A program made the translations under genes and the position numbers. Shown here in pieces: positions 32,418-45,852 of a DNA stretch of 64,000 bases. The notes under the pieces are model-generated. The model had not been told where the DNA came from. It did no database searches and worked only from the letters and a program-made list of their open reading frames with translations. Each line of letters begins with the position of its first letter. The first letter of the stretch is position 1. The stretch is from Haladaptatus caseinilyticus (GTDB lineage: Archaea; Halobacteriota; Halobacteria; Halobacteriales; Haladaptataceae), in assembly GCF_026248685.1 (NCBI RefSeq), contig NZ_CP111036.1, positions 1 through 64,000 on the forward strand, read 5' to 3'.

Positions 32418-33530
32418 ATGAGCCGATGGGTCGCCGCGTTCACGGATACGTACTTACCGACGATAAACGGCGTCACCTACACGATCAGGTCGTGGCGCGA
32501 CTGTTGGGAGAAAAACGACGGCCGGATGGACGTCATCTACCCGCGATCGGACGAGTACACGCCCGAAAAAGGTGAACATCCCGTCGGCAGCCTACCGTTC
32601 CCCTTTTACGACGGCTACCGACTCGGCACGCCACGGATTCCGAAAGCCGTCATCGATGCCGATATCGTCCACGCTCACACACCGTTTGCCATCGGACTCG
32701 GCGGACTTCGACTCGCGTGGAAAGAGGATACACCGTTTGTGACTTCGTATCACACGCCGACTGGGGAGTACGCGGACTATCTCGTTTCGAACGAATCCGC
32801 GGCCGAGTACGTCGAGCGTGCGTCCGTCGCCTACGAACGCTGGTTTTTCGGACGTTCCGATGCGGTGCTCACGCCGAGCGAGGCGACACGGAAGCACGTC
32901 GTCGAAACCGTCGGCGTGGACGCACCCGTTCACGTCGTGCCGAACGGAATCGACATCGAACGGTTCCATCCCGTCGAAACCGCCGCATTCGTCGAGAAAT
33001 ACGACCTCGACGGGGGGCGACCGCTTATCGGGTATACAGGCCGACATGGCTACGAAAAGCGTCTCTCGGAACTCGTCTCGGCCGCGGAGGGAATGGAGCT
33101 TACGGTCGTTTTCGGCGGTGACGGTCCCGCACGAAAATCGCTCGAAAAACAGGCTCGCGAATCCGACGCCGACGTTCGATTCCTGGGCTTTCTAGAACGT
33201 GAAGAGATGCCAGCCTTTTACTCCGCGTTGGACGTGTTTGCCTTCCCGAGCCCGGTCGAAACCCAAGGTCTTGTCGCCCTCGAAGCGAACGCCTGCGGAA
33301 CACCCGTCGTCGGTGCAAATGCGGGTGCATTGGAAAACACTATTTCGGAGGGAAAGACGGGGCATCATTTCGAAAGCGGTGATATCGAAGGGTTTCAGGA
33401 TGCGATCCGGCGTACACTATCGAATCGCGACCGACTTCGAGAATCGTGTCTCGCCCGGCGCTCGGAAGTCAGCGTCGAACGGGCGGTCGAAAAACTGGGG
33501 CGGGTGTACGAGCGTATCGACCGTCGTTAG
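32418..33530 (+). CDS. Glycosyltransferase family 4, diacylglycerol glucosyltransferase-like
   Basis: 370-residue GT-B enzyme. It starts MSRWVAAFTDTYLPTINGVT, the classic start of Pim/diacylglycerol glucosyltransferase-type GT4 proteins, then VHAHTPFAIGLGGLRLAWKE, TSYHTPTGEYADYL and SDAVLTPSEATRKHVVE. The donor site includes PNGIDIERFHPV, TGRHGYEKRLSELVSA and FAFPSPVETQGLVALEANAC. The likely product is a glycolipid at the inner face of the membrane, but acceptor and sugar cannot be read. It follows the first GT gene with a 42-base gap, probably one operon, and its last bases overlap the convergent HD gene by four. Confidence 0.88.
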   Translation: MSRWVAAFTDTYLPTINGVTYTIRSWRDCWEKNDGRMDVIYPRSDEYTPEKGEHPVGSLPFPFYDGYRLGTPRIPKAVIDADIVHAHTPFAIGLGGLRLAWKEDTPFVTSYHTPTGEYADYLVSNESAAEYVERASVAYERWFFGRSDAVLTPSEATRKHVVETVGVDAPVHVVPNGIDIERFHPVETAAFVEKYDLDGGRPLIGYTGRHGYEKRLSELVSAAEGMELTVVFGGDGPARKSLEKQARESDADVRFLGFLEREEMPAFYSALDVFAFPSPVETQGLVALEANACGTPVVGANAGALENTISEGKTGHHFESGDIEGFQDAIRRTLSNRDRLRESCLARRSEVSVERAVEKLGRVYERIDRR

Positions 33531-34348
33531 AGTTCCATTCGTTCAACGATCGCGTCGCTTCCCTCGCGGACGTTCAGCGCGACGATTCGGATGTCGTCTT
33601 CCAATCCGGATTTGTGAAGTTTCGCCTTGAGAAGGTTGTCCACCTGATACACTCCCGCCGCGTTCATCATCTCGATTTCGACCAGAACGGGCACGGTGTC
33701 TCCCTCTCGAAGGCTGACTTTCTGGATCGCCTGACTGGAAACCGTGTTGATGCCTCGACCACCCTTTTCGTACGGGATACGCGAGCGACCGTGTTCCATG
33801 TCGAGGGCATCCGCGACGCGAATTACCCCTGCTTCGGTCGTCAGCGGGTCCTCTTCGGTGTGGTGACAGAGGATCGCGTGAAGGATTTCGCCCTTCATTC
33901 GAACCGTGTTTGCAGTGTCGTAGAAGTTCGGAAGAACGCGGTCGAGAACGTCTGCGGCCAGCGGAATCGAATAGTAGGAGTGGTCGTCACGGTGGACGAT
34001 GTGGCCGATATCGTGGAGTACAGCAGCGAACGCGATGATAACGCTTTCGTCCTCCTCGTCTAACCCTTCGTCCGCGGCGCCGTTGAACTCGACCCCACCG
34101 CGCTTTAGCAGGTCATAGAGGAGGAGGGCACGATTGAGTACGATTTCGATGTGCTTCGACCCGTGGTCGTTGTAGCCCTTCCTCGCTACGGCATTGACGT
34201 TCTGAGCGTCGAGATACGTCTGAATTTCGACGTCGTTGTCGATAAACTCCAGAACTGCGTTCAGTTTCTCGTCCGGGAACGCGTGGTCGGCGTCCGGATC
34301 GTACGCACGCCGTCCGTTTTCGACGGGTTCCGTTTCTGGTTCGTCCAT
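33527..34348 (-). CDS. HD-domain phosphohydrolase
   Basis: The 273-residue cytosolic protein has an HD metal-dependent phosphohydrolase domain. Motifs in order are KGYNDHGSKHIEIVLNRA, AVLHDIGHIVHRDDHSYY and EILHAILCHHTEED, with later EAGVIRVADALDMEHGRSR; together they give the H...HD...D set. A C-terminal about 80-residue domain (VPVLVEIEMMNAAGVYQVDN) is typical of haloarchaeal members. Nucleotide hydrolysis is likely but the substrate is unknown. The ATG at 34348 was chosen; the upstream open frame lacks similarity. Confidence 0.9.
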   Translation of the reverse strand: MDEPETEPVENGRRAYDPDADHAFPDEKLNAVLEFIDNDVEIQTYLDAQNVNAVARKGYNDHGSKHIEIVLNRALLLYDLLKRGGVEFNGAADEGLDEEDESVIIAFAAVLHDIGHIVHRDDHSYYSIPLAADVLDRVLPNFYDTANTVRMKGEILHAILCHHTEEDPLTTEAGVIRVADALDMEHGRSRIPYEKGGRGINTVSSQAIQKVSLREGDTVPVLVEIEMMNAAGVYQVDNLLKAKLHKSGLEDDIRIVALNVREGSDAIVERMEL

Positions 34349-34451
34349 GACCGTACCTCTCGTTCCGGCGCAAAAAATGTCTCGGGCACAGTCCCGATGG
34401 AGAACGAGTTGGCGAACTGATGCCATCCGAACCCGTTTAGAGCAAAAAGCC

Positions 34452-35417: not shown

Positions 35418-38400
35418 ATGGCTAGTGATGAATCAGAGGTGTTCGGGGGTGGGGGCCCCGACGCTTCCCCCGACGGCATCCATCTCGCAGACGGGGCACC
35501 CGCCCGTGTCGCTCTCGGTACGTACACGTGGGAGGATTTCAAGGCGGAGTATTTCTACGAGAACGGGAGACCACCGACGAATTGGCGTGGGAAATCCCGT
35601 CCGTTTCCGGCCGAGGAATTTCTCGGGTTCGCCCCGGAAGAAACCACGTCACGCATCAGAACGGGGGCGAAACGCGCAACCGCACTTGGGACATATTTCG
35701 AGGCATTTCTCGTCCCGGAAGAAACGTCGGTTTCACTCGGCGAGTATCTCTGGGAGCATTTTCGCTACGAATATTACTACGACCCCGGCCGCGAGAAACC
35801 CCACGAAAAGCCCCGCGACGTGGACGGGAACGTCGTCGAATTCGACAAAGCGACGTGGCTCGGGTTCGAGGAGGACGAACTCCCGAAACGTCTCTTTCGG
35901 GGCGCGTTCGCCGGAAATCGCGGAAGCGAACGATTCGAGGCGTTTCTCGATCCAGCCACGACACCCGTCACGGTCGGCGAGTACCTCTGGGAGCATTTTC
36001 GCTACGAATACTACTACGACCCCGACCGCGAGAAACCCCACCAAAAACCACATGACGGGGATGGAAACGTCGTCGAGTTCGAGAAGGCAGAGTGGCTCGG
36101 ATTCGAGGAGGATGACCTACCGGATCGTCTCACCGAGGGTGCGGCCAAGGCGAGCGTCCTCCTCGGAATCGAAGACGAACGGACGCTCGATGTCCCCGAC
36201 GAGTTGGACGAGGACGCCTTTTTTTCGACCGTCGAGGGCCACACGACGGTCGTCAATCGCTACGACTTGGAGAAGGCGGTTGCCTTCCCGAAAAAGAGGC
36301 ACTTTCGCGAAGTAGACCGCTACTGGGTGAACAAACCCTTCTCGTTCGTCTGTATTTTTCACTCGGGGAAGGAAAACGAGACGAAATACTACCTCATCGA
36401 ACCGTATCGAACACCGATCGAAGACGACCTGCAAGCGTTTCTCACCGGCAAACTCCGGACCGCCATCAAATACGCGAGCGACGACGTGGTCGCGGAAACC
36501 GACGGGAAAGACCGTCAAACCGTCATCGAACGGGAAACCCTTCGATTGCTCTCGCGCTACGACCTCTACGTGCCCGGCGACGACGAAATAGCTGAAAGCC
36601 TCACGGCACTGCTGACCCGGTACGACAACGCTCGTGAAACGTGGAACCGGTACGGAGCCGAAACGCGAGCACAAACCGATACGGCGATTCGAACGCTTCG
36701 CGAGGAGACTGAACCGTACTTCGAACGGTTCCGGAAGGACGACCCAGCAGAATGTGGGGACGAACGGAGTACCAACGCGGATGAAACAACTGGGGAATCT
36801 GTGCCCGATTTCGACGACGGAGAACCGACGAAACCGGGCGACGATGGAACCGTCCCCGAGGAACCGGAATCGGACGAAATCGGGGATGGACCGTCAAACG
36901 AACGGGAATCCCAACCGTCATCCTCTACGCAAGGTCGTCTGAACGAGCTCGGAACGCGCTGGAAGGCCCTGCTCGAGAAACACGTCGGCAACGAAAGTGT
37001 ACGACGGGGAGTACGAACGCGAGTCGAAGAACTCATCGAGGAGCACGAGGCCGACGATGAGAACTGCGAACTCGATGGGATCATGGCACGTCCCGAACCG
37101 GCCTTGCTGGCGGAGGATTCCGATACCCTCTCCGAGTATCAGGTCGAAAAATTGCTGTACCTACTGAAGCGGGATTTCATCGGCTACGAGCGAATCGACG
37201 GCATCAAACACGACATCAACGTGGAGGATATCTCCTGTGACGGCTACAATTCCCCGGTGTTCGTCTACCACTCCGACTACGAACAGATAATCACGAACGT
37301 CCATCACGGGGAAAGCGAGTTGGACGACTTCGTCGTCAAGCTCGCACAGCGGTCGGGGAAAGGTATCAGTAAACGGCAGCCGCAGGTGGATGCGACGCTG
37401 CCCGATGGCTCCCGCGCCCAGTTGACCCTCGGCCGGGAGGTGTCCGACCACGGGACGAACTACACCATTCGTCAGTTCAAGGACGTGCCGTTCACGCCAC
37501 TCGACCTGATCAACTGGAACACCTTCTCGCTAGACGAAATGGCGTTTCTCTGGTTGGCCATCGAAAACCATCGGTCGCTTATCTTCGCAGGGGGTACCGC
37601 GTCCGGAAAAACGACCAGTCTGAATGCAGTGTCACTGTTCATTCCTAGCAACACGAAAATCGTCTCCATCGAGGACACCCGCGAGGTCGAACTCCCACAG
37701 CGAAACTGGATTGCGAGCGTCACTCGTCCCTCCTTCTCCGACGACGACAAGGGCGACGTGGACGAGTTCGATCTGCTCGAGGCTGCTCTCCGCCAGCGAC
37801 CCGACTACATCGTGATGGGGGAGATTCGGGGCGAAGAAGGTCGAACCCTCTTCCAAGTCATGTCCACCGGACACACGACCTACACGACTTTCCACGCGGA
37901 TACCGTCGGCGAGGTTCTCAAGCGATTCACCACGGAACCCATCAACGTATCGAAAACGCTGTTCACCGCGCTCGACCTCGTTTCCGTTCAGACACAGACA
38001 CGGGTCAAGGGAAGCAAAGTCAGGCGGACGAAGTCACTCACGGAAATAAATCACTACGATACCGAGAACGACGAGATCAACGTCAAGGACGTGTTCCAGT
38101 GGCGTGCGGAGACAGACGAACACGAACGTCTCACCGGGTCGAACACGCTGGAGGAGATCAAGTTCGACCGCGGGTGGAATCAGGACCAGCTCGAGACGGA
38201 ACTGCTCATGCGGCGAGCCATCCTCGCATATCTCCTCGATAACGGGCTGAACGAGTACACACAGGTGGCCGCGACGATTCAGGCGTTCATCAACGATCCG
38301 GACACTATCCTCGCACTGGTCGCAAACGAGACGCTCGAAGACAGTCTCGCCGATCTTCGCGAGATGGAAAGCGTCCTCATCGATATCGATCCGAAAAAGG

Positions 38401-38708
38401 AGGAGATGGTGCCACGACCCGACCCGAACGAGGAAATCGTCCAACTCTCGAAGGACATCCTCGCCGAGGCGGACGACCGACTGTTCGACCAGTATCGCGA
38501 TATGCACGTCACTGGAAGCGACCTCGCAGTCGCGTTAGTCGATACCGCGAACCCCACGGACGAACCGACTCGCGATCGCGCGTCCGGCGGGGTACCACAC
38601 ACTGGCGACGGGAGATCCGACATGGACGGCCATCACTTCGGCGAGTTCGAGGAAGCGACGTTCGCAGACGACGAACATTCTGAAAGCGCAGGGGAGGACG
38701 ACGAATGA
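35418..38708 (+). CDS. pilB3: Type IV pilus assembly ATPase (PilB3/TadA-like) with three tandem N-terminal modules
   Basis: Cytosolic hexameric motor that powers pilin assembly. The 1096-residue protein holds the secretion ATPase core in its C-terminal half: IFAGGTASGKTTSLNAV (Walker A near 725), VSIEDTREVELP (Asp box), YIVMGEIRGEEGRTLFQVMS (Walker B) and TGHTTYTTFHAD (His box). The N-terminal region is unusual: a module starting LGTYTWEDFKAEYFYENGRP is followed by two near-identical copies, LGEYLWEHFRYEYYYDPGRE and VGEYLWEHFRYEYYYDPDRE. These begin near residues 33, 107 and 186. An acidic linker (about 440-510) separates this part from the core. Start ATG 35418 follows AT-rich promoter DNA. 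It overlaps the next gene by four bases. Confidence 0.92.
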   Translation: MASDESEVFGGGGPDASPDGIHLADGAPARVALGTYTWEDFKAEYFYENGRPPTNWRGKSRPFPAEEFLGFAPEETTSRIRTGAKRATALGTYFEAFLVPEETSVSLGEYLWEHFRYEYYYDPGREKPHEKPRDVDGNVVEFDKATWLGFEEDELPKRLFRGAFAGNRGSERFEAFLDPATTPVTVGEYLWEHFRYEYYYDPDREKPHQKPHDGDGNVVEFEKAEWLGFEEDDLPDRLTEGAAKASVLLGIEDERTLDVPDELDEDAFFSTVEGHTTVVNRYDLEKAVAFPKKRHFREVDRYWVNKPFSFVCIFHSGKENETKYYLIEPYRTPIEDDLQAFLTGKLRTAIKYASDDVVAETDGKDRQTVIERETLRLLSRYDLYVPGDDEIAESLTALLTRYDNARETWNRYGAETRAQTDTAIRTLREETEPYFERFRKDDPAECGDERSTNADETTGESVPDFDDGEPTKPGDDGTVPEEPESDEIGDGPSNERESQPSSSTQGRLNELGTRWKALLEKHVGNESVRRGVRTRVEELIEEHEADDENCELDGIMARPEPALLAEDSDTLSEYQVEKLLYLLKRDFIGYERIDGIKHDINVEDISCDGYNSPVFVYHSDYEQIITNVHHGESELDDFVVKLAQRSGKGISKRQPQVDATLPDGSRAQLTLGREVSDHGTNYTIRQFKDVPFTPLDLINWNTFSLDEMAFLWLAIENHRSLIFAGGTASGKTTSLNAVSLFIPSNTKIVSIEDTREVELPQRNWIASVTRPSFSDDDKGDVDEFDLLEAALRQRPDYIVMGEIRGEEGRTLFQVMSTGHTTYTTFHADTVGEVLKRFTTEPINVSKTLFTALDLVSVQTQTRVKGSKVRRTKSLTEINHYDTENDEINVKDVFQWRAETDEHERLTGSNTLEEIKFDRGWNQDQLETELLMRRAILAYLLDNGLNEYTQVAATIQAFINDPDTILALVANETLEDSLADLREMESVLIDIDPKKEEMVPRPDPNEEIVQLSKDILAEADDRLFDQYRDMHVTGSDLAVALVDTANPTDEPTRDRASGGVPHTGDGRSDMDGHHFGEFEEATFADDEHSESAGEDDE
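35514..36125 (+). repeat. Three tandem copies of a pilus-ATPase N-terminal module
   Basis: Coding repeats inside the pilus ATPase gene with periods of about 74 and 79 codons, near 35514, 35736 and 35973. Copies 2 and 3 are very similar even at the DNA level (for example CTCTGGGAGCATTTTCGCTA in both), which points to recent duplication; copy 1 is more diverged. Confidence 0.85.
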
Positions 38709-40726
38709 GCCTCGGGACTGCGACCAGCAACAGCGGGACCAGTGCCGATAGACTCGCCGATGCCTTCTATCCGTTGTACGACCGTCTCTTCGACGAGAAC
38801 AGTGATTTCGCGGCAACCCTCGAAGAGAAACTCGCCGAAGCTCGAATGCCAGAAACCGCCGAGTTGTACGTCTCGCGCGGTCTCGCGGTCGGAACACTCG
38901 TCGGACTCGTGTTGTGGTTGGTCGGGCTCCTTCTCGGCTACCTGTTGGTCTCGGTCGGTTTCATCGGGGGCGGGACGTGGCTCGGTGTCCCTGTTTCGGG
39001 CGCGACGGCGGACGTGCTGAACGCATTGAAGATACCGACCCTGATTCTCGGTATTGGCGTCGTTCTCGGAACCGTCGGTTTCGCGGCCGGGTTCGGAACG
39101 GTCGTTGCCATTCCGTACAGCAGGGCGAGCGCGCGAAAGCGTGAGATCAACATGCTCCTGCCGGACGCCATCTCGTTCATGTATGCTCTCTCCATCGGCG
39201 GACTGAACCAACTGGAGATCTTGGAAGCGATGGCGAGAGCGGACGATACGTATGGCGAGGTGTCCCACGAGTTCCGGAGCATCGTTCAGGAGACGGAGTA
39301 CTTCGATACGGACTACCGAACTGCAATCCGAAAGCGCGCGCTCGAAACGCCCAGCAACGAGTTGGGGCAGTTTTTCACCGATATGCTATCCATCGTCAAC
39401 AGCGGCGGGAACATGACGCAGTTTTTGGACGACAAAAAGGACAAGCATATGCGGACGGCAAAACAGGAGCAGGAACTGACGCTCGAAACGCTGGAACTGT
39501 TCGGCGAGATGTACATGACTCTCTCGCTGTTTCCGCTCCTGCTCATCATCATCCTCGTCATCATGGGCATCATGGGGGAAGCGAAGCAGACCCTGCTCTA
39601 CGCCACGGTGTACGGGTTGATTCCGCTCATCGGCGTCGGGTTCCTCGTCCTCGTTTCGACCGTGAAGCAGGACGATCCCGGTAGTGGTTATCTCGAACCT
39701 GACAACGACGGTGATCAGTTGGAGACCGTCTCCGGCGCTGGACTGCTGCATCTCGGTCTCGTCGAGGAGTTCATCGGCGAGTTCTCGGTGTTCGACCGAA
39801 TCAAAAGTCGGGAAGGAACGCATACCACCATCGAACTGCTGCGGCGGCCACACTACTTTTTCCGCGATAATCCGCTGTACGTTCTCGGAATCACGATACC
39901 GGTGTCGATGGTGCTGGTCGCCAGCGCGGTGTGGACCGGTGCGGTTCCAGCATCCGTGGATGAATTCATTTCGAATCCAGTCTGGACGACGTTCGTCTCC
40001 GTCTACGTCCCGCTGTACGTGAACGGCGTTCCACTCGCCATCTTCCGCGAGTGGAACGTCCACTCCCGGCGGACTGTCGTTCGAAAGCTCTCCGACGACC
40101 TTCGAAAGCTATCGAGTGCGAACGACACCGGGTTGACGCTCCTCGAATCCATCAAAACCGTTGCGGACACGTCCTCCGGCAAGCTCTCGGATGAGTTCGA
40201 CCGAATTCACGCCAAGGTACAGTACGGCATGAGCATGAAAACGGCGTTCATCGAGTTCAACAACCGCTATCACCTGCCGCGACTCGCACGGACGGTGAAA
40301 CTCATCAGCAAGGCACAGGAGGCGTCGAGCCAGATTACTGCCGTCCTGACGACTGCGGCACAGACCAGCGAGAACCAGGACGACATCGCAAGAGAGCGGC
40401 GATCCCGCGCCAGAATGCAGGTCGTCATCATCATCATGACCTACCTTACCCTGCTCGCTGTAATGGCCATCTTGAAAACGCAGTTCATCGACGTGATGGC
40501 TGGACTCGCGGGACAAGCGTCGAACAAGGATTCGCCACAGGGAATGAGCTTCGGAAGTAGTATCGACACGACGATGCTGTCGATGCTCTTTTTCCACGCC
40601 GTAACGATACAAGCCATTCTCTCCGGATTCATCGCGGGCTACATCCGCGATGCCGACTTGCTCTCCGGCGTGAAATTCGCCGTCGTCCTTCCGACGATCG
40701 CCCTCGTCACGTTCACTTTCATCTAA
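38705..40726 (+). CDS. pilC3: Type IV pilus membrane platform (PilC3/TadC-like), two T2SF domains
   Basis: Integral membrane platform that partners the assembly ATPase. The 673-residue protein contains two T2SSF domains, about 130-310 (LPDAISFMYALSIGGLNQLE, then LGQFFTDMLSIVNSGGNMTQ) and about 455-600 (LRKLSSANDTGLTLLESIKT, then TAFIEFNNRYHLPRLARTVK), each with flanking transmembrane helices. Hydrophobic segments also occur near 60-85, 100-135, 265-310 and the C-terminus. Its ATG overlaps the ATPase stop by four bases (ATGA), so translation is coupled. The downstream pilin-like genes follow almost without gaps. Confidence 0.92.
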   Translation: MSLGTATSNSGTSADRLADAFYPLYDRLFDENSDFAATLEEKLAEARMPETAELYVSRGLAVGTLVGLVLWLVGLLLGYLLVSVGFIGGGTWLGVPVSGATADVLNALKIPTLILGIGVVLGTVGFAAGFGTVVAIPYSRASARKREINMLLPDAISFMYALSIGGLNQLEILEAMARADDTYGEVSHEFRSIVQETEYFDTDYRTAIRKRALETPSNELGQFFTDMLSIVNSGGNMTQFLDDKKDKHMRTAKQEQELTLETLELFGEMYMTLSLFPLLLIIILVIMGIMGEAKQTLLYATVYGLIPLIGVGFLVLVSTVKQDDPGSGYLEPDNDGDQLETVSGAGLLHLGLVEEFIGEFSVFDRIKSREGTHTTIELLRRPHYFFRDNPLYVLGITIPVSMVLVASAVWTGAVPASVDEFISNPVWTTFVSVYVPLYVNGVPLAIFREWNVHSRRTVVRKLSDDLRKLSSANDTGLTLLESIKTVADTSSGKLSDEFDRIHAKVQYGMSMKTAFIEFNNRYHLPRLARTVKLISKAQEASSQITAVLTTAAQTSENQDDIARERRSRARMQVVIIIMTYLTLLAVMAILKTQFIDVMAGLAGQASNKDSPQGMSFGSSIDTTMLSMLFFHAVTIQAILSGFIAGYIRDADLLSGVKFAVVLPTIALVTFTFI

Positions 40727-40728
40727 CT

Positions 40729-41178
40729 ATGCGAGCACAAACGAGCATCGACTTTTTGGTCGGAATGAGCGTCTTTCTGCTCACAGTAGCCTTCGTGTTC
40801 ATGGCGCTCCCGAACTCGTTCGTACCGTTCACCGGGGACGAGAGCGCCGAATTACTCAGTGTAGACCGGGTCGCTTCACATCTCTCTGACGGGACACTCG
40901 CCCGGCGCGGCCAACCGGGGATCCTGAACGAGACGTGCACCACGCAGTTTTTCGGTGCACCGGGAGCCTGCAATCCGTCGGACCTCAACGCCGCGCTCGG
41001 CGTGGGGTCACAGCAACGCGTGAACGTCACCATCGAGTCGAACGGCGCGATCCGAACGGTCGGTGGGGTCGAACTCAGTGCGGGGCCGTCGGTTCCAACG
41101 AGGGGTTCCGTCGTCGTTGCGACTCGACTCGTCGCTATCGACGGCGACGAACATACGTTGTACGTCAGGATGTGGTAA
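40729..41178 (+). CDS. Pilin-like protein 1 of the pilus operon
   Basis: 149 residues. The N-terminus MRAQTSIDFLVGMSVFLLTV has an Arg-Ala preceding a Gln and a long hydrophobic helix, a pattern like archaeal prepilin leaders though unusually short. The exterior part (about 30-149) contains a cysteine pair (ETCTTQ, GACNPS) and beta-rich segments. It belongs to a set of small haloarchaeal proteins of unknown function that regularly sit behind PilB/PilC genes. It starts two bases after the platform gene stop and is a probable minor pilin or pilus-associated subunit. Confidence 0.75.
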   Translation: MRAQTSIDFLVGMSVFLLTVAFVFMALPNSFVPFTGDESAELLSVDRVASHLSDGTLARRGQPGILNETCTTQFFGAPGACNPSDLNAALGVGSQQRVNVTIESNGAIRTVGGVELSAGPSVPTRGSVVVATRLVAIDGDEHTLYVRMW

Positions 41179-41179
41179 C

Positions 41180-41767
41180 ATGGATAGGGCACAAGCACAC
41201 ACGTTGGAGGCGTTTACCGCGGCGCTGTTGATAGTCAGTGCTATCATCTTCTCGCTCCAGGCGACGGCGGTGACGCCACTCACTGCGAGCACGTCGAATC
41301 AGCATATCGAGAATCAGGAGGAAGCGACGGCTGACGGATTGCTATCGGTTACGGCTGACGACGGCCGACTCCGCGAGGCCGTCCTGTACTGGAACGACAC
41401 CGGCAGGAAATTCGCCGGGTCAAACGACGATGGGATTCACGCGAACGGTGGTCCACCGAATGGCTTTGGCAGAACACTGAACGAGACGTTCGGCAACATC
41501 ACGTCTGGCGGTAGTCGAATCGCATACGACGTGTTCGTGGTCTACCGGATGCCAACCAACGAAACCCGGCGAAAGACGATGGTGTACATGGGTGCTCCCA
41601 GCGATAACGCCGTCGTTGCGACCCGCACCATCCCGCTGTTCGACGGTGACGAACTCACATCGCCCGGCGGTGGGACCGTCGGGGAATCGTTTTACGCACC
41701 GGACGCCGCGCCGAACGCGGCGCTATACAACGTCGTGGAGGTTAGGATCGTCGTATGGAGGATGTGA
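41180..41767 (+). CDS. Pilin-like protein 2 of the pilus operon
   Basis: 195 residues from the ATG at 41180, one base after the previous stop. The leader MDRAQAHTLEAFTAALLIVS puts Arg-Ala before Gln-Ala and a hydrophobic helix with a conserved Glu after the start, like the Glu+5 of pilins. The external part has several N-x-S/T sites (NDT, NET, NIT) and a glycine-rich middle, and ends in a beta segment, ALYNVVEVRIVVW. The family is known only as a haloarchaeal protein near pilus genes. Its stop overlaps the next ATG (TGATG). Confidence 0.75.
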   Translation: MDRAQAHTLEAFTAALLIVSAIIFSLQATAVTPLTASTSNQHIENQEEATADGLLSVTADDGRLREAVLYWNDTGRKFAGSNDDGIHANGGPPNGFGRTLNETFGNITSGGSRIAYDVFVVYRMPTNETRRKTMVYMGAPSDNAVVATRTIPLFDGDELTSPGGGTVGESFYAPDAAPNAALYNVVEVRIVVWRM

Positions 41768-42717
41768 TGTCGGTTCGTATACGAGGTACCGACCGCGGGC
41801 AACTCATCCTCGTGACGGGGCTTGCTATCGCGGCCATTCTGGTCGCACTCGTCCTTCTGCTCAACACGGTCATCTATACCGAAAACCTCGCCACCCGCGG
41901 CGCGGATGTCGGTGGTCATGACGTGGTCGAGTTCCGAAACCTCGCCACGGACGGAGTCGGGGCAGTTGTCGTTCACGAGAATCAGGCTAACCACTCGTCG
42001 CCGGGAGCCGTGACCACGAACGCTACGGACGGTATCCGTCGATATGCCGATCTATCGGAACGGTACTATCTCGAACGCGCTTCAGTGGTTGAAGTATCGA
42101 ACCTCACCGTTTCGACCGGGATGGCGTTACGCCATCGGAACGGAACGCGAACGTTCACCAGCAAAAGCGGGGCAAAAAACTGGACGCTGGCGACGAACAT
42201 CGGCGAGGGTCAACTCCGGCGATTCCAGTTCGAACTGGCACGGGAACCACTCGCATCGTCGCCGTCCCAGTCGTTCCGAATCGTCCTCGATGACGGCGAC
42301 GACGCGTGGCGTGCGTTCGTCTATCGGCAGGCGGGCGATATCGTCGTCGCCACGAACACGGATGCGGGTGGTTCACCGACCCCGGTTTGCTCGGCGACGA
42401 CCGCGAAAACCACGTTCTCACTTACCGACGAGACGTTTGCCGAGGAACCCTGTCCGATAGATTTCGCTGGTGGGCTGGACGACCCGTACTCGGTCGAATA
42501 CCGATACGGAAACGAGGCGAACGGGACCTACTCCGTCGTCGTGAACACGTCGGCCGGCGCGGGAGTGACCGCCACGAACTTCGTAACAGATGGCTCCAAT
42601 TCATCGCCATACACCAGCCACGCCGTCTACAGTGCGACGTTCGACAGCTACTTTCGGACGCCGAAACTGACCTACGCCGAGCGTATTCGGGTCGCCCCGG
42701 GTGAGCATGATGATTGA
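41767..42717 (+). CDS. Pilin-like protein 3 of the pilus operon
   Basis: 316 residues from ATG 41767; an ATG four codons upstream also fits. The leader RIRGTDRGQLILVTGLAIAA has an Arg-Gly before Gln and a hydrophobic stretch, AAILVALVLLLNTVIYTENL. The rest is a beta-rich external domain with potential glycosylation sequons (NHS, NAT, NLT) and two cysteines. I recall a haloarchaeal family of this type adjacent to pilus genes; its function is unknown. It is translationally coupled with its neighbours on both sides. Confidence 0.75.
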   Translation: MSVRIRGTDRGQLILVTGLAIAAILVALVLLLNTVIYTENLATRGADVGGHDVVEFRNLATDGVGAVVVHENQANHSSPGAVTTNATDGIRRYADLSERYYLERASVVEVSNLTVSTGMALRHRNGTRTFTSKSGAKNWTLATNIGEGQLRRFQFELAREPLASSPSQSFRIVLDDGDDAWRAFVYRQAGDIVVATNTDAGGSPTPVCSATTAKTTFSLTDETFAEEPCPIDFAGGLDDPYSVEYRYGNEANGTYSVVVNTSAGAGVTATNFVTDGSNSSPYTSHAVYSATFDSYFRTPKLTYAERIRVAPGEHDD

Positions 42718-43192
42718 CCCCGGACGAATGCGAGCGGTGATCGACCGTGATCGGACGGGAACGTCGATCGACTGCAATCGAGGTGTTTCGGTGACGGTGA
42801 ACTATGCTCTCAACCTTGTTGTCGCGACGGTGCTCATCGCGGGACTGTTGACTGCAACGGCCGGAATGGTCGAAGACCACCGGAGAGACGCGGCACGAAC
42901 GGAACTCCACGTCATCGGCCAGCGACTCTCGGCCGACACACAGACTGCCGACAGACTCGTTCAGGTGGGGGGTAAAACGGTTGTCGTCGAAACGTCGCTA
43001 CCCGAACGCGTTGCTGGGGTTTCCTATTCGGTAACCGTCGAACCCGACGCGTTCGTACTGAAAACAACTGGGCCACAGGTGACCGTGCGTGTCTCCTTTG
43101 CCACTGCCACGCCAGTCAAGGAAACGACGACTTCCGGTGGTTCGGTAACGATCGTCCGAACCGACGACGGCGAGTTGGAGGTGCGGGGATGA
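42701..43192 (+). CDS. Pilin-like protein 4 of the pilus operon
   Basis: 163 residues if the GTG at 42701 is used; ATG at 42707 or 42710 is also possible and all overlap the previous stop. Arg-Gly occurs in CNRGVSVTVNYALNLVVATV, followed by the helix LIAGLLTATAGMVEDHRRDA. The remaining part is beta-rich with no cysteines. The leader before the Arg-Gly is longer (about 28 residues) than in the sister proteins. Probable minor pilin or pilus-associated protein. The next gene overlaps its stop by four bases. Confidence 0.72.
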   Translation: MSMMIDPGRMRAVIDRDRTGTSIDCNRGVSVTVNYALNLVVATVLIAGLLTATAGMVEDHRRDAARTELHVIGQRLSADTQTADRLVQVGGKTVVVETSLPERVAGVSYSVTVEPDAFVLKTTGPQVTVRVSFATATPVKETTTSGGSVTIVRTDDGELEVRG

Positions 43193-43947
43193 ACGACCGC
43201 GCCGCGAGCGAAACCGTGGGATTCGTTCTCGCGTTCGTTCTCGTAACGGCGACGATCGGAGCGGTGTATGCGACGGGTATCGAGGGGCTTCACGACGCAC
43301 AACGATTCGAGCAAGTGAACAACGCGGAGCGTGCCTTCGACGTGCTCGCCGATAACGTCGCGGACGTGCACCGGGAGGGCGTGCCGAGTCGGGCGACCGA
43401 ACTCCGATTGGGGGGTGCGACGCTCGACTATCGCGATCCCGTGACGATTCGCGTGCAAGTGAACGAGACCGGTCCATCGACCAGAAACGCGACATACGTG
43501 ATGAACACCAACCCCCTCGTTTACTCGGGCGTCGAGGATAGCGAACTCGTCTACGTTGGCGGTGCGGTGTTTCGAAGTAGTAATGGAGGGAGCGTGATGC
43601 GCCGTGAACCGGGCTATGTGTTCGACGACGAGCGCGTTGTCATTCCGTTTCTCATCACTTATCCGCGCGGCGACACTGACAGTATTTCCGGGGATTCGAC
43701 CGTTCTGATCGTTGCATACCATCAATCTGCCGCCCTCGACGGTCAGTTCCGAACCGGTTCTACGGCGGACGTACGGACGAACGTAACTGTCGAGTCACCG
43801 CGGGCAGTGGCGTGGAAACGATATTTTGAGCGAAAGGGATTGACAGCGATAGACGGTGACGCGACCGACGGAAGCGTCACGTACCAATTAGTCACCGATC
43901 GGGTCGTCGTCCCCGAAACAGTGGTCGAGTTCGAACTGAAGCGATAG
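43189..43947 (+). CDS. Pilin-like protein 5 of the pilus operon
   Basis: 252 residues. The leader MNDRAASETVGFVLAFVLVT contains Arg-Ala then Ala-Ser-Glu-Thr-Val-Gly, very close to that of the large convergent gene. A helix continues as ATIGAVYATGIEGLHDAQRF, and an external domain of about 210 residues with some N-x-T sites (NET, NAT, NVT) follows. It overlaps the previous gene by four bases (ATGA) and ends the plus-strand operon. I see no lectin or adhesin motif. Confidence 0.75.
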   Translation: MNDRAASETVGFVLAFVLVTATIGAVYATGIEGLHDAQRFEQVNNAERAFDVLADNVADVHREGVPSRATELRLGGATLDYRDPVTIRVQVNETGPSTRNATYVMNTNPLVYSGVEDSELVYVGGAVFRSSNGGSVMRREPGYVFDDERVVIPFLITYPRGDTDSISGDSTVLIVAYHQSAALDGQFRTGSTADVRTNVTVESPRAVAWKRYFERKGLTAIDGDATDGSVTYQLVTDRVVVPETVVEFELKR

Positions 43948-43963: not shown

Positions 43964-45670
43964 TCAGACAGACGTGACGTTCACTCGGTTGACCGAGACA
44001 TGCATGTAGGTGACTCGCGGAATCGCGGTGTACTCCGCCGGGAGTGTCTGGGCCTGGACGAGCGACTGATCGTAATGAACGACGCCGCCCGATTGGAGAA
44101 GCGTCTGTCCACCGACCAGCGCACCAAAGACGCTCGAGTGTGTCGTCACCGAGATCCGTCCTCGATGGCTATCGGAGTTCGGAGCGTACAGGACCCCAGT
44201 AAACTTCGCATCGGAAAAGTCGGCGTTCGTCCCCGGGGGACCGTAGATTCTGAATGCAGGTGAACGGTCACCGGATACAGATACGTTCGCTCCATTGGTC
44301 ACCGACAGCGTGGTTCCGCCCATGTAGACGTTCGCAGTACCGTTTTGCGGTGCGACGACTCGAATTTTCCCACCGTTTACGCTCACATCGCCATCGACGA
44401 CGAGGTCGACATCTCCGTCGGAAAGGTCAAAAACGAGTTCGTCGCTACCGGTGAGTGAGAGCGAGTCGAGGTGGTAATCGCCCGCGGTAAGCGTCCACGT
44501 GACGGTCGATGTATCCAGTTTCGACCCTTCAATGGCGGTCGTGGCATCATTGTCGTTTTCGTCACCGACCGCTTCGATTTCGTGATCGATCATCTTATCG
44601 ACAGGGTCGATCGTGTCGACACTTCCGTTATTTGCGACCCAGCCATCGACGCTTGCTTTTTTGTGTAGTTCCGGTTCGCTCCCGCCATAGGAGATATTTC
44701 CCCTCACTGCGCTATTGCCGCTTTTTAACTCTATCTGTCCCCCACCGGAAACGAGATCACCGCGAATCTCGGCCCCGCCACGCATCGTGACGCCGCCGAC
44801 GGTCTTGATAGTTCCATTCGACCCGCTGGTCATGCTGTACGTTCCGACCGAGGAATTGTAGCTATCGGTGAACGACGGATTACCACCGGACCCTTTGATG
44901 GTGAGTTCCTGTGGCGAGGTAGACGCCAGACCTTGTTTTATTTTCGGGGCTTTCGTCGGCGTGACGAGGGTGAGTGTCACCGTTTTTGCAACGTCGTCGT
45001 ACTGGACTTCGCCACCAGTCCGCCGTTCGAAAAACTGTCCCCATGCCAGATAGTAGTCGCTCTGGACAGTGACGTTTACCGTCGCTTCAGAGAGTGGGTT
45101 GGTTTTTTCTGATTCGGCGAGCGGAAATTTTGGCTCGACGCTTCCGTTTTTTCTAACTTCGAGGCGCGAGTCGAGTGCACCTTCGCCACCGACAGTAACG
45201 AGTGGGAGCGTGAGTGTCGTTTTGCGGTAGTGAAATTCAGGGGGTGAAACCATCGTCGAACCGTCCCCATCATGACGCCACACACCCCCTCCTTGATAGG
45301 CGATGGACGTTCGCTCGTTTCGATAGACGATCGACCCGAGCGTTTGATTCATCACTTCTACTGCCACCCCATCGTCGGGGTCCACTTCGATGCGCATCCA
45401 ACCGTCTCGACTGCGGGTAATCGTCCGCCCATCGTTTCGTACGCCAAGGTTCACTTTTTGCATATCCGTCTCGCCGATACCCACCAAACTGGCTTTGGAG
45501 TCCAGTTGTGTCATCGCGTGCTCCGCGCTGTCGAGTTCGGTCACTCGTTTCGAATCGTCTAACATTGATGATCCGTAGGCGACGATGGCTCCCGTCCCCG
45601 CGAGCGTGATCAAAAGAAGAAGGACGACGCCCACCGTTTCGCTCTGTGCGCGAGTTGACGGGTGTACCAT
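43964..45670 (-). CDS. Large pilin-like surface protein with bactofilin-like beta-helical part
   Basis: 568 residues from ATG 45670. The leader STRAQSETVGVVLLLLITLA matches the RAxSETVG motif of pilin-like protein 5, so it is probably processed by the same peptidase or is a stable anchor. The middle (about 60-300) is a beta domain. The following part (about 310-420) has repeated short hydrophobic turns such as RGGAEIRGDLVSGGGQIELK and NISYGG, like polymer-forming bactofilin proteins. The rest includes further repeating strands (VNGGKIRVVAPQNGTANVYM). It is convergent with the pilus operon and may be the major or an accessory pilus component. Upstream DNA is AT-rich. Confidence 0.78.
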   Translation of the reverse strand: MVHPSTRAQSETVGVVLLLLITLAGTGAIVAYGSSMLDDSKRVTELDSAEHAMTQLDSKASLVGIGETDMQKVNLGVRNDGRTITRSRDGWMRIEVDPDDGVAVEVMNQTLGSIVYRNERTSIAYQGGGVWRHDGDGSTMVSPPEFHYRKTTLTLPLVTVGGEGALDSRLEVRKNGSVEPKFPLAESEKTNPLSEATVNVTVQSDYYLAWGQFFERRTGGEVQYDDVAKTVTLTLVTPTKAPKIKQGLASTSPQELTIKGSGGNPSFTDSYNSSVGTYSMTSGSNGTIKTVGGVTMRGGAEIRGDLVSGGGQIELKSGNSAVRGNISYGGSEPELHKKASVDGWVANNGSVDTIDPVDKMIDHEIEAVGDENDNDATTAIEGSKLDTSTVTWTLTAGDYHLDSLSLTGSDELVFDLSDGDVDLVVDGDVSVNGGKIRVVAPQNGTANVYMGGTTLSVTNGANVSVSGDRSPAFRIYGPPGTNADFSDAKFTGVLYAPNSDSHRGRISVTTHSSVFGALVGGQTLLQSGGVVHYDQSLVQAQTLPAEYTAIPRVTYMHVSVNRVNVTSV

Positions 45671-45852
45671 GCAAGCAACTCTTTCGTCGGCAGTAATAAA
45701 CGTCTGCAATTTTATCGGAAAGAGGTCATTTTAAAGGCCGAAGTAGTCTGCCGTTTCTAACGGTTGCTATCCATTAACCGACTATTTTAATCCTCGATCC
45801 GCCTGCTAATACGGCCACAACAGGTACAATCCCACACCGATGAAGTCATAAT

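Follow-up and report, generated by a model that had tools for sequence, protein, structure and literature searches.

The bacterial motors PilB and GspE carry MshEN domains, tandem N-terminal domains that bind c-di-GMP. Among haloarchaea, the PilB4 ATPase HVO_1160 has extra N- and C-terminal domains that are specific to Halobacteria (Makarova et al. 2016, PMC4858521), and the existence of an extra N-terminal region in PilB4 is thus already known. Searches of open-licence papers found no description of this region as a tandem repeat, nor of a three-copy form, and Supplementary Figure S4 of Makarova et al. may show part of it. We analysed a 64,000-nt stretch of the Haladaptatus caseinilyticus genome (the window), in which an open reading frame at 35418-38708 (+) encodes a type IV pilus secretion ATPase of 1096 aa with three tandem N-terminal modules.

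Results

The ATPase was recognised by T2SSE (E = 5.8e-32), and its best PDB relatives were A. fulgidus GspE (2oap) and FlaI (4ihq/4ii7). It shares a VirB11-type motor core with GspE and with FlaI/ArlI; matches to these proteins were confined to the core, whereas the window protein adds modules, a linker and an acidic C-terminal tail. All features of the gene lie on the forward strand. Past the modules, a PilB3_N-like N-terminal ATPase domain (36204-36602; aa 263-395) showed many invariant residues and a best Foldseek match to 2oap. A variable acidic linker (36603-37052; aa 396-545) leads to the secretion ATPase core (37053-38447; aa 546-1010), identified by T2SSE, PDB relatives and homologue alignment. 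Its Walker A motif, GGTASGKT (37590-37613), was read from the sequence and occupies invariant alignment columns 725-732. The protein ends in a long C-terminal tail, and the acidic end of this tail (38640-38705) bears an FGEFEEA-type motif close to its terminus, possibly a short linear motif. An FGxFExA motif was found in 19 of 85 sequences, from Haladaptataceae and some Haloferacaceae, which rules it out as a general feature of the ATPase.

The next gene encodes the cognate PilC/TadC-type membrane platform (38705-40726, +; 673 aa; T2SSF, E = 4e-31) and overlaps the ATPase stop codon. Five further genes follow on the same strand, each recognised by a domain match: DUF7287 (40729-41178; Pfam domain, same operon), DUF7288 (41177-41767), DUF7261 (41755-42717), DUF7266 (42701-43192) and DUF7289 (43189-43947). 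Judging from gene context, all five are probably pilin-like, with the DUF7287 protein a probable minor pilin-like product. Convergent with the operon, a gene at 43964-45709 (-) encodes a 581-aa protein with DUF7289 and DUF7305, probably another pilin-like protein. A divergent gene on the other side (33527-34426, -) encodes an HD-domain protein, possibly a phosphohydrolase.

The original prediction had placed the motor in the PilB3 family. The window protein scored 18.5 bits against PilB3_N (PF23990), below the cut-off of 27, and 31.1 bits against PilB3_C (PF23989), barely over the cut-off of 27. A separate gene elsewhere in the same genome encodes a 544-aa PilB3-type paralogue without modules (PilB3_N 58.6 bits; PilB3_C 77.7 bits). 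This shorter paralogue is the genuine PilB3, and a PilB3 identity for the window ATPase was therefore rejected. Haloarchaeal PilB3 is a homologous secretion ATPase, and the window domain past module 3 is distantly PilB3_N-like; unlike the window protein, however, PilB3 has no modules, is about 550 aa long and has its own gene in the same genome. An archaellum motor (ArlI/FlaI) was likewise excluded, as the NF058587 score, 386.8 bits, fell short of the cut-off of 550.

Haloferax has a separate gene for each of three motors: ArlI (NF058587, 867 bits; cut-off 550), PilB3 (PilB3_N and PilB3_C, 158 and 143 bits) and a two-module orthologue of the window protein. The orthologue is directly followed by a 680-aa ORF in the PilC position and lies about 48 kb from arlI, a distance that fits the gene order around HVO_1160. 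The ATPase core of the window protein was approximately 76-82% identical to that of the Haloferax orthologues; these differ from it in having two modules rather than three and in a long insert within the first of them. A T2SSE core with Walker A, modules found only in Halobacteriales and a long C-terminal tail were all present in the window protein. Given the distinct third Haloferax gene and the published description of HVO_1160, with its Halobacteria-specific extra N- and C-terminal parts (PMC4858521), the window protein is well supported by sequence comparison as PilB4-type (HVO_1160-like), its presumed orthology to HVO_1160 being traced through the Haloferax relative and gene distances.

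The three modules occupy 35508-35726 (module 1, approximately aa 31-103), 35730-35963 (module 2, approximately aa 105-182) and 35964-36200 (module 3, approximately aa 183-261). Module 1 is the distal, A-type copy and falls together with the first module of orthologues that carry two; module 2 is an extra copy common to Haladaptataceae; module 3 is B-type and adjoins the ATPase N-terminal domain. Each matched a 75-position module HMM, iterated over homologues and partly built from the same modules, at E ≤ 1e-24. Local alignment gave z-scores of 18 (modules 1 and 2), 14 (modules 1 and 3) and 40 (modules 2 and 3), each pair scoring above all 500 shuffles. Copies 2 and 3 form a direct repeat of 198 nt at 80% identity with a spacing of 237 nt, or 79 codons. 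These scores bear out the predicted tandem triplication, with copies 2 and 3 as the closest pair. The extent needed revision: the full repeat unit is approximately 73-79 residues (a module of about 78 residues) rather than about 50, the shorter length matching the stretch over which copies 2 and 3 are well conserved, and the array ends at 36200, beyond the predicted 36130. The suggestion of 18 modules per motor is sound arithmetic, provided that the ATPase is hexameric like its relatives. A repeat collapsed or expanded during assembly is very unlikely, almost to the point of being negligible, as the reading frame is intact across 1096 codons, the copies differ by at least 20% and an identical three-module layout recurs in many independent assemblies.

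Conserved features of the modules are W, P and F positions and an LGF motif, and no catalytic residues were conserved in the module alignment; the invariant W, P and F look structural rather than catalytic. A 378-residue N-terminal model (pLDDT 80; pTM 0.40, low for the arrangement of modules) predicted that each module begins with a short helix and a loop containing brief strands, continues with a second short helix and closes with a long one of about 25 residues; the ATPase N-terminal domain comes after the array. The full-length model was poor (pLDDT 43). Tandem N-terminal domains on a secretion ATPase occupy the same place as MshEN on bacterial pilus motors, which would fit small-ligand sensors functionally like MshEN. 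Against this, a Pfam search with 33 modules returned no convincing family match, MshEN included, a PDB sequence search with the modules returned no match, and Foldseek of the N-terminal model against PDB gave no convincing module fold match (best hit A. fulgidus GspE, E = 0.005, fewer than 100 columns, TM < 0.15). The modules thus have no detectable sequence relation to MshEN, and MshEN or another known domain was ruled out by the Pfam and PDB searches; a ligand-sensing role is accordingly improbable.

The C-terminal half of the module depends on its place in the array: a terminal FEAFLDP-type link joins each of copies 1 and 2 to the following module, and copy 3 is joined to the ATPase domain by a terminal link of ERTLDVP type.

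We counted modules by HMM across haloarchaea. The commonest state among 80-odd haloarchaeal homologues was two modules, and some orthologues had one recognisable module or none. The expectation of one module elsewhere thus did not hold, since PilB3 has none and PilB4-type proteins mostly have two. Module matches were present in 350 of 391 Halobacteriales genomes; such single-model genome counts undercount the divergent first module, so that "one" often means two. Within a Haladaptataceae sample that includes, judging by its named loci, Haladaptatus, Halorussus and Halomicrococcus, three modules were found in 23 of the 25 genomes with the gene, and two modules in the remaining two (H. pallidirubidus and H. 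salinisoli). Prevalence of the three-copy form, named beforehand as a refutation, therefore holds for Haladaptataceae but not for haloarchaea at large. At least three module matches were detected in 8 of the 325 other Halobacteriales genomes with a match, always spread over two separate genes, and these eight genomes, with three or four matches each, were rejected as carriers of three-module proteins. Natronocalculus had three modules by the iterated HMM. In a 247-genome sample of the phylum, 38 genomes matched, all from the same order or closer, and no match came from outside Halobacteriales; the matches sit in ATPase-sized ORFs of 830-1475 codons. Two Haladaptatus genomes (G002 and G007; 99% and 95% complete) gave no module match and seem to be without this ATPase. 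In a Haladaptatus relative (L105; G003:C2, about 1408000-1413500), a frameshift just before Walker A splits the orthologous ATPase gene, reflecting either a pseudogene or a sequencing error.

In the ATPase-core tree, all Haladaptataceae sequences formed one clade (SH-aLRT 100), and the two-module species were nested inside Haladaptatus; one gain at the base of the family followed by two losses within Haladaptatus is our preferred reading of this tree. The module tree, weakly resolved as the module is short, grouped copy 1 with module 1 of the proteins that have two. Copies 2 and 3 formed a family-specific pair (89/97), within which each copy had its own cross-species group (93/90 and 91/80). 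The Natronocalculus copies 2 and 3 were placed elsewhere, which makes its third module an independent gain. One Haloferacaceae MAG (B1-Br10_E2g22; L036) carries a pair of similar B-type modules but lacks an A-type module, which suggests that A was lost after a B duplication common to L036 and Natronocalculus. The C-terminal half in the two-module species H. pallidirubidus and H. salinisoli was module 3-like, which fits a loss of module 2. Most likely, on these trees and alignments, module 2 arose once, at the base of Haladaptataceae, by duplication of the ATPase-proximal module, and was lost twice in Haladaptatus.

The 80% identity of copies 2 and 3 over 198 nt would favour what had been predicted, namely a recent triplication, in the lineage of this species, of a normally single PilB3 module, altering the motor entrance. 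The family distribution and the divergence both contradict it. All 17 genomes sampled from the sister genus, Halorussus, had three copies, as did one genome of a third genus, so the three-module state is common to the family. Comparison of modules 2 and 3 in the window gave dS 0.89, dN 0.26 and 66% amino acid identity; at this level dS is partly saturated, and 76 codons make it a noisy estimate, so the age argument leans more on the cross-species comparison. Modules 2 and 3 of the window gene were 77-87% identical in amino acids to the orthologous copies in other Haladaptatus, above the 66% between the two of them, indicating that the duplication predates the genus. As the protein is also not PilB3, a recent lineage-specific triplication was ruled out, and we regard it as highly improbable. 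The third copy is, by these sequence comparisons, an old family trait and not a recent event.

The young look of copies 2 and 3 is attributable to their first approximately 47 codons. Over this stretch the two copies were 81-87% identical in amino acids in every three-module Haladaptatus genome, and 50-63% identical in Halorussus and Halomicrococcus. In this first half, pairing modules 2 and 3 within a genome gave higher similarity than pairing them across genomes, whether scored on amino acids, on nucleotides or on third positions (0.75 versus 0.64 for third positions), and the true pairing was the best of 120 permutations (five genomes, two pairs of them close kin; 1/120 being the minimum attainable). 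In the second half there was no same-genome excess (third positions 0.33 versus 0.32). These results point to concerted evolution confined to the first approximately 47 codons, for which gene conversion or repeated unequal crossover would be the simplest cause, since protein-level constraint alone would leave third positions not tracking the genome.

Discussion

The identification of the motor as PilB4 and the history of its modules, taken together, are conclusions that we hold with high confidence. The usual state is two modules, a distal module A and an ATPase-adjoining module B. Duplication of B in the Haladaptataceae ancestor most likely produced A-B'-B; most members retained the extra copy, which was lost on two occasions within Haladaptatus. 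Sequence exchange between copies 2 and 3 affects their first approximately 47 codons, and their C-terminal halves stay position-specific.

The modules are predicted to lie ahead of the ATPase N-terminal domain, a region through which secretion ATPases often engage their partners, and would most likely form a repeated binding arm, with three modules per subunit and 18 per hexamer. Candidate partners of such an arm are the cytoplasmic face of PilC4, a MinD/FleN-like regulator or pilin tails. The main contact would probably be module 3, and the extra copy may tune reach or avidity. The position-specific C-terminal halves, the strong conservation of copy 3 and the loss of copy 2 lead us to infer a docking arm whose main contact is copy 3. 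Mean between-species dN was about 0.07 for module 3, 0.12 for module 2 and 0.16 for module 1, making module 3 the most constrained. Drawn from position, composition and analogy, a non-catalytic docking or adaptor arm is a tentative proposal, to which we give somewhat less than even credence. The explanation as a whole, with a PilB4 motor, duplication of B in the family ancestor and modules that serve as a docking arm, is one that we favour with reasonable confidence.

The main rival to the docking arm is that copy number drifts nearly neutrally, the modules being a flexible spacer gained and lost by unequal recombination with little functional effect. Two losses in Haladaptatus, the independent gain in Natronocalculus, members with one or zero recognisable modules and the faster evolution of copy 2 than of copy 3 are all consistent with drift; because some orthologues have one recognisable module or none, the array does not seem strictly needed. 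Near-neutrality fits less well with the retention of three copies in every sampled Halorussus genome, with the conserved W, P, F and LGF positions, and with a dN well below dS between orthologous copies. We consider such drift unlikely, although it deserves serious attention. A more specific version of the docking arm, in which an undescribed haloarchaeal domain recruits a specific PilB4 partner and its copy number, with independent duplications on more than one occasion and copies kept alike by partial gene conversion, sets the avidity or reach of a regulated pilus motor, is speculative, and we would not expect it to hold in full.

These findings correct the identity of the motor to PilB4, and thereby direct attention to a little-studied haloarchaeal pilus system. 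They also illustrate how an old duplication can come to look recent through partial gene conversion. The PilB4-type proteins provide a natural series, in which one motor carries none to three copies of one module, and, with copy number varying between two and three among close relatives within one genus, the contribution of the extra copy can be tested directly.
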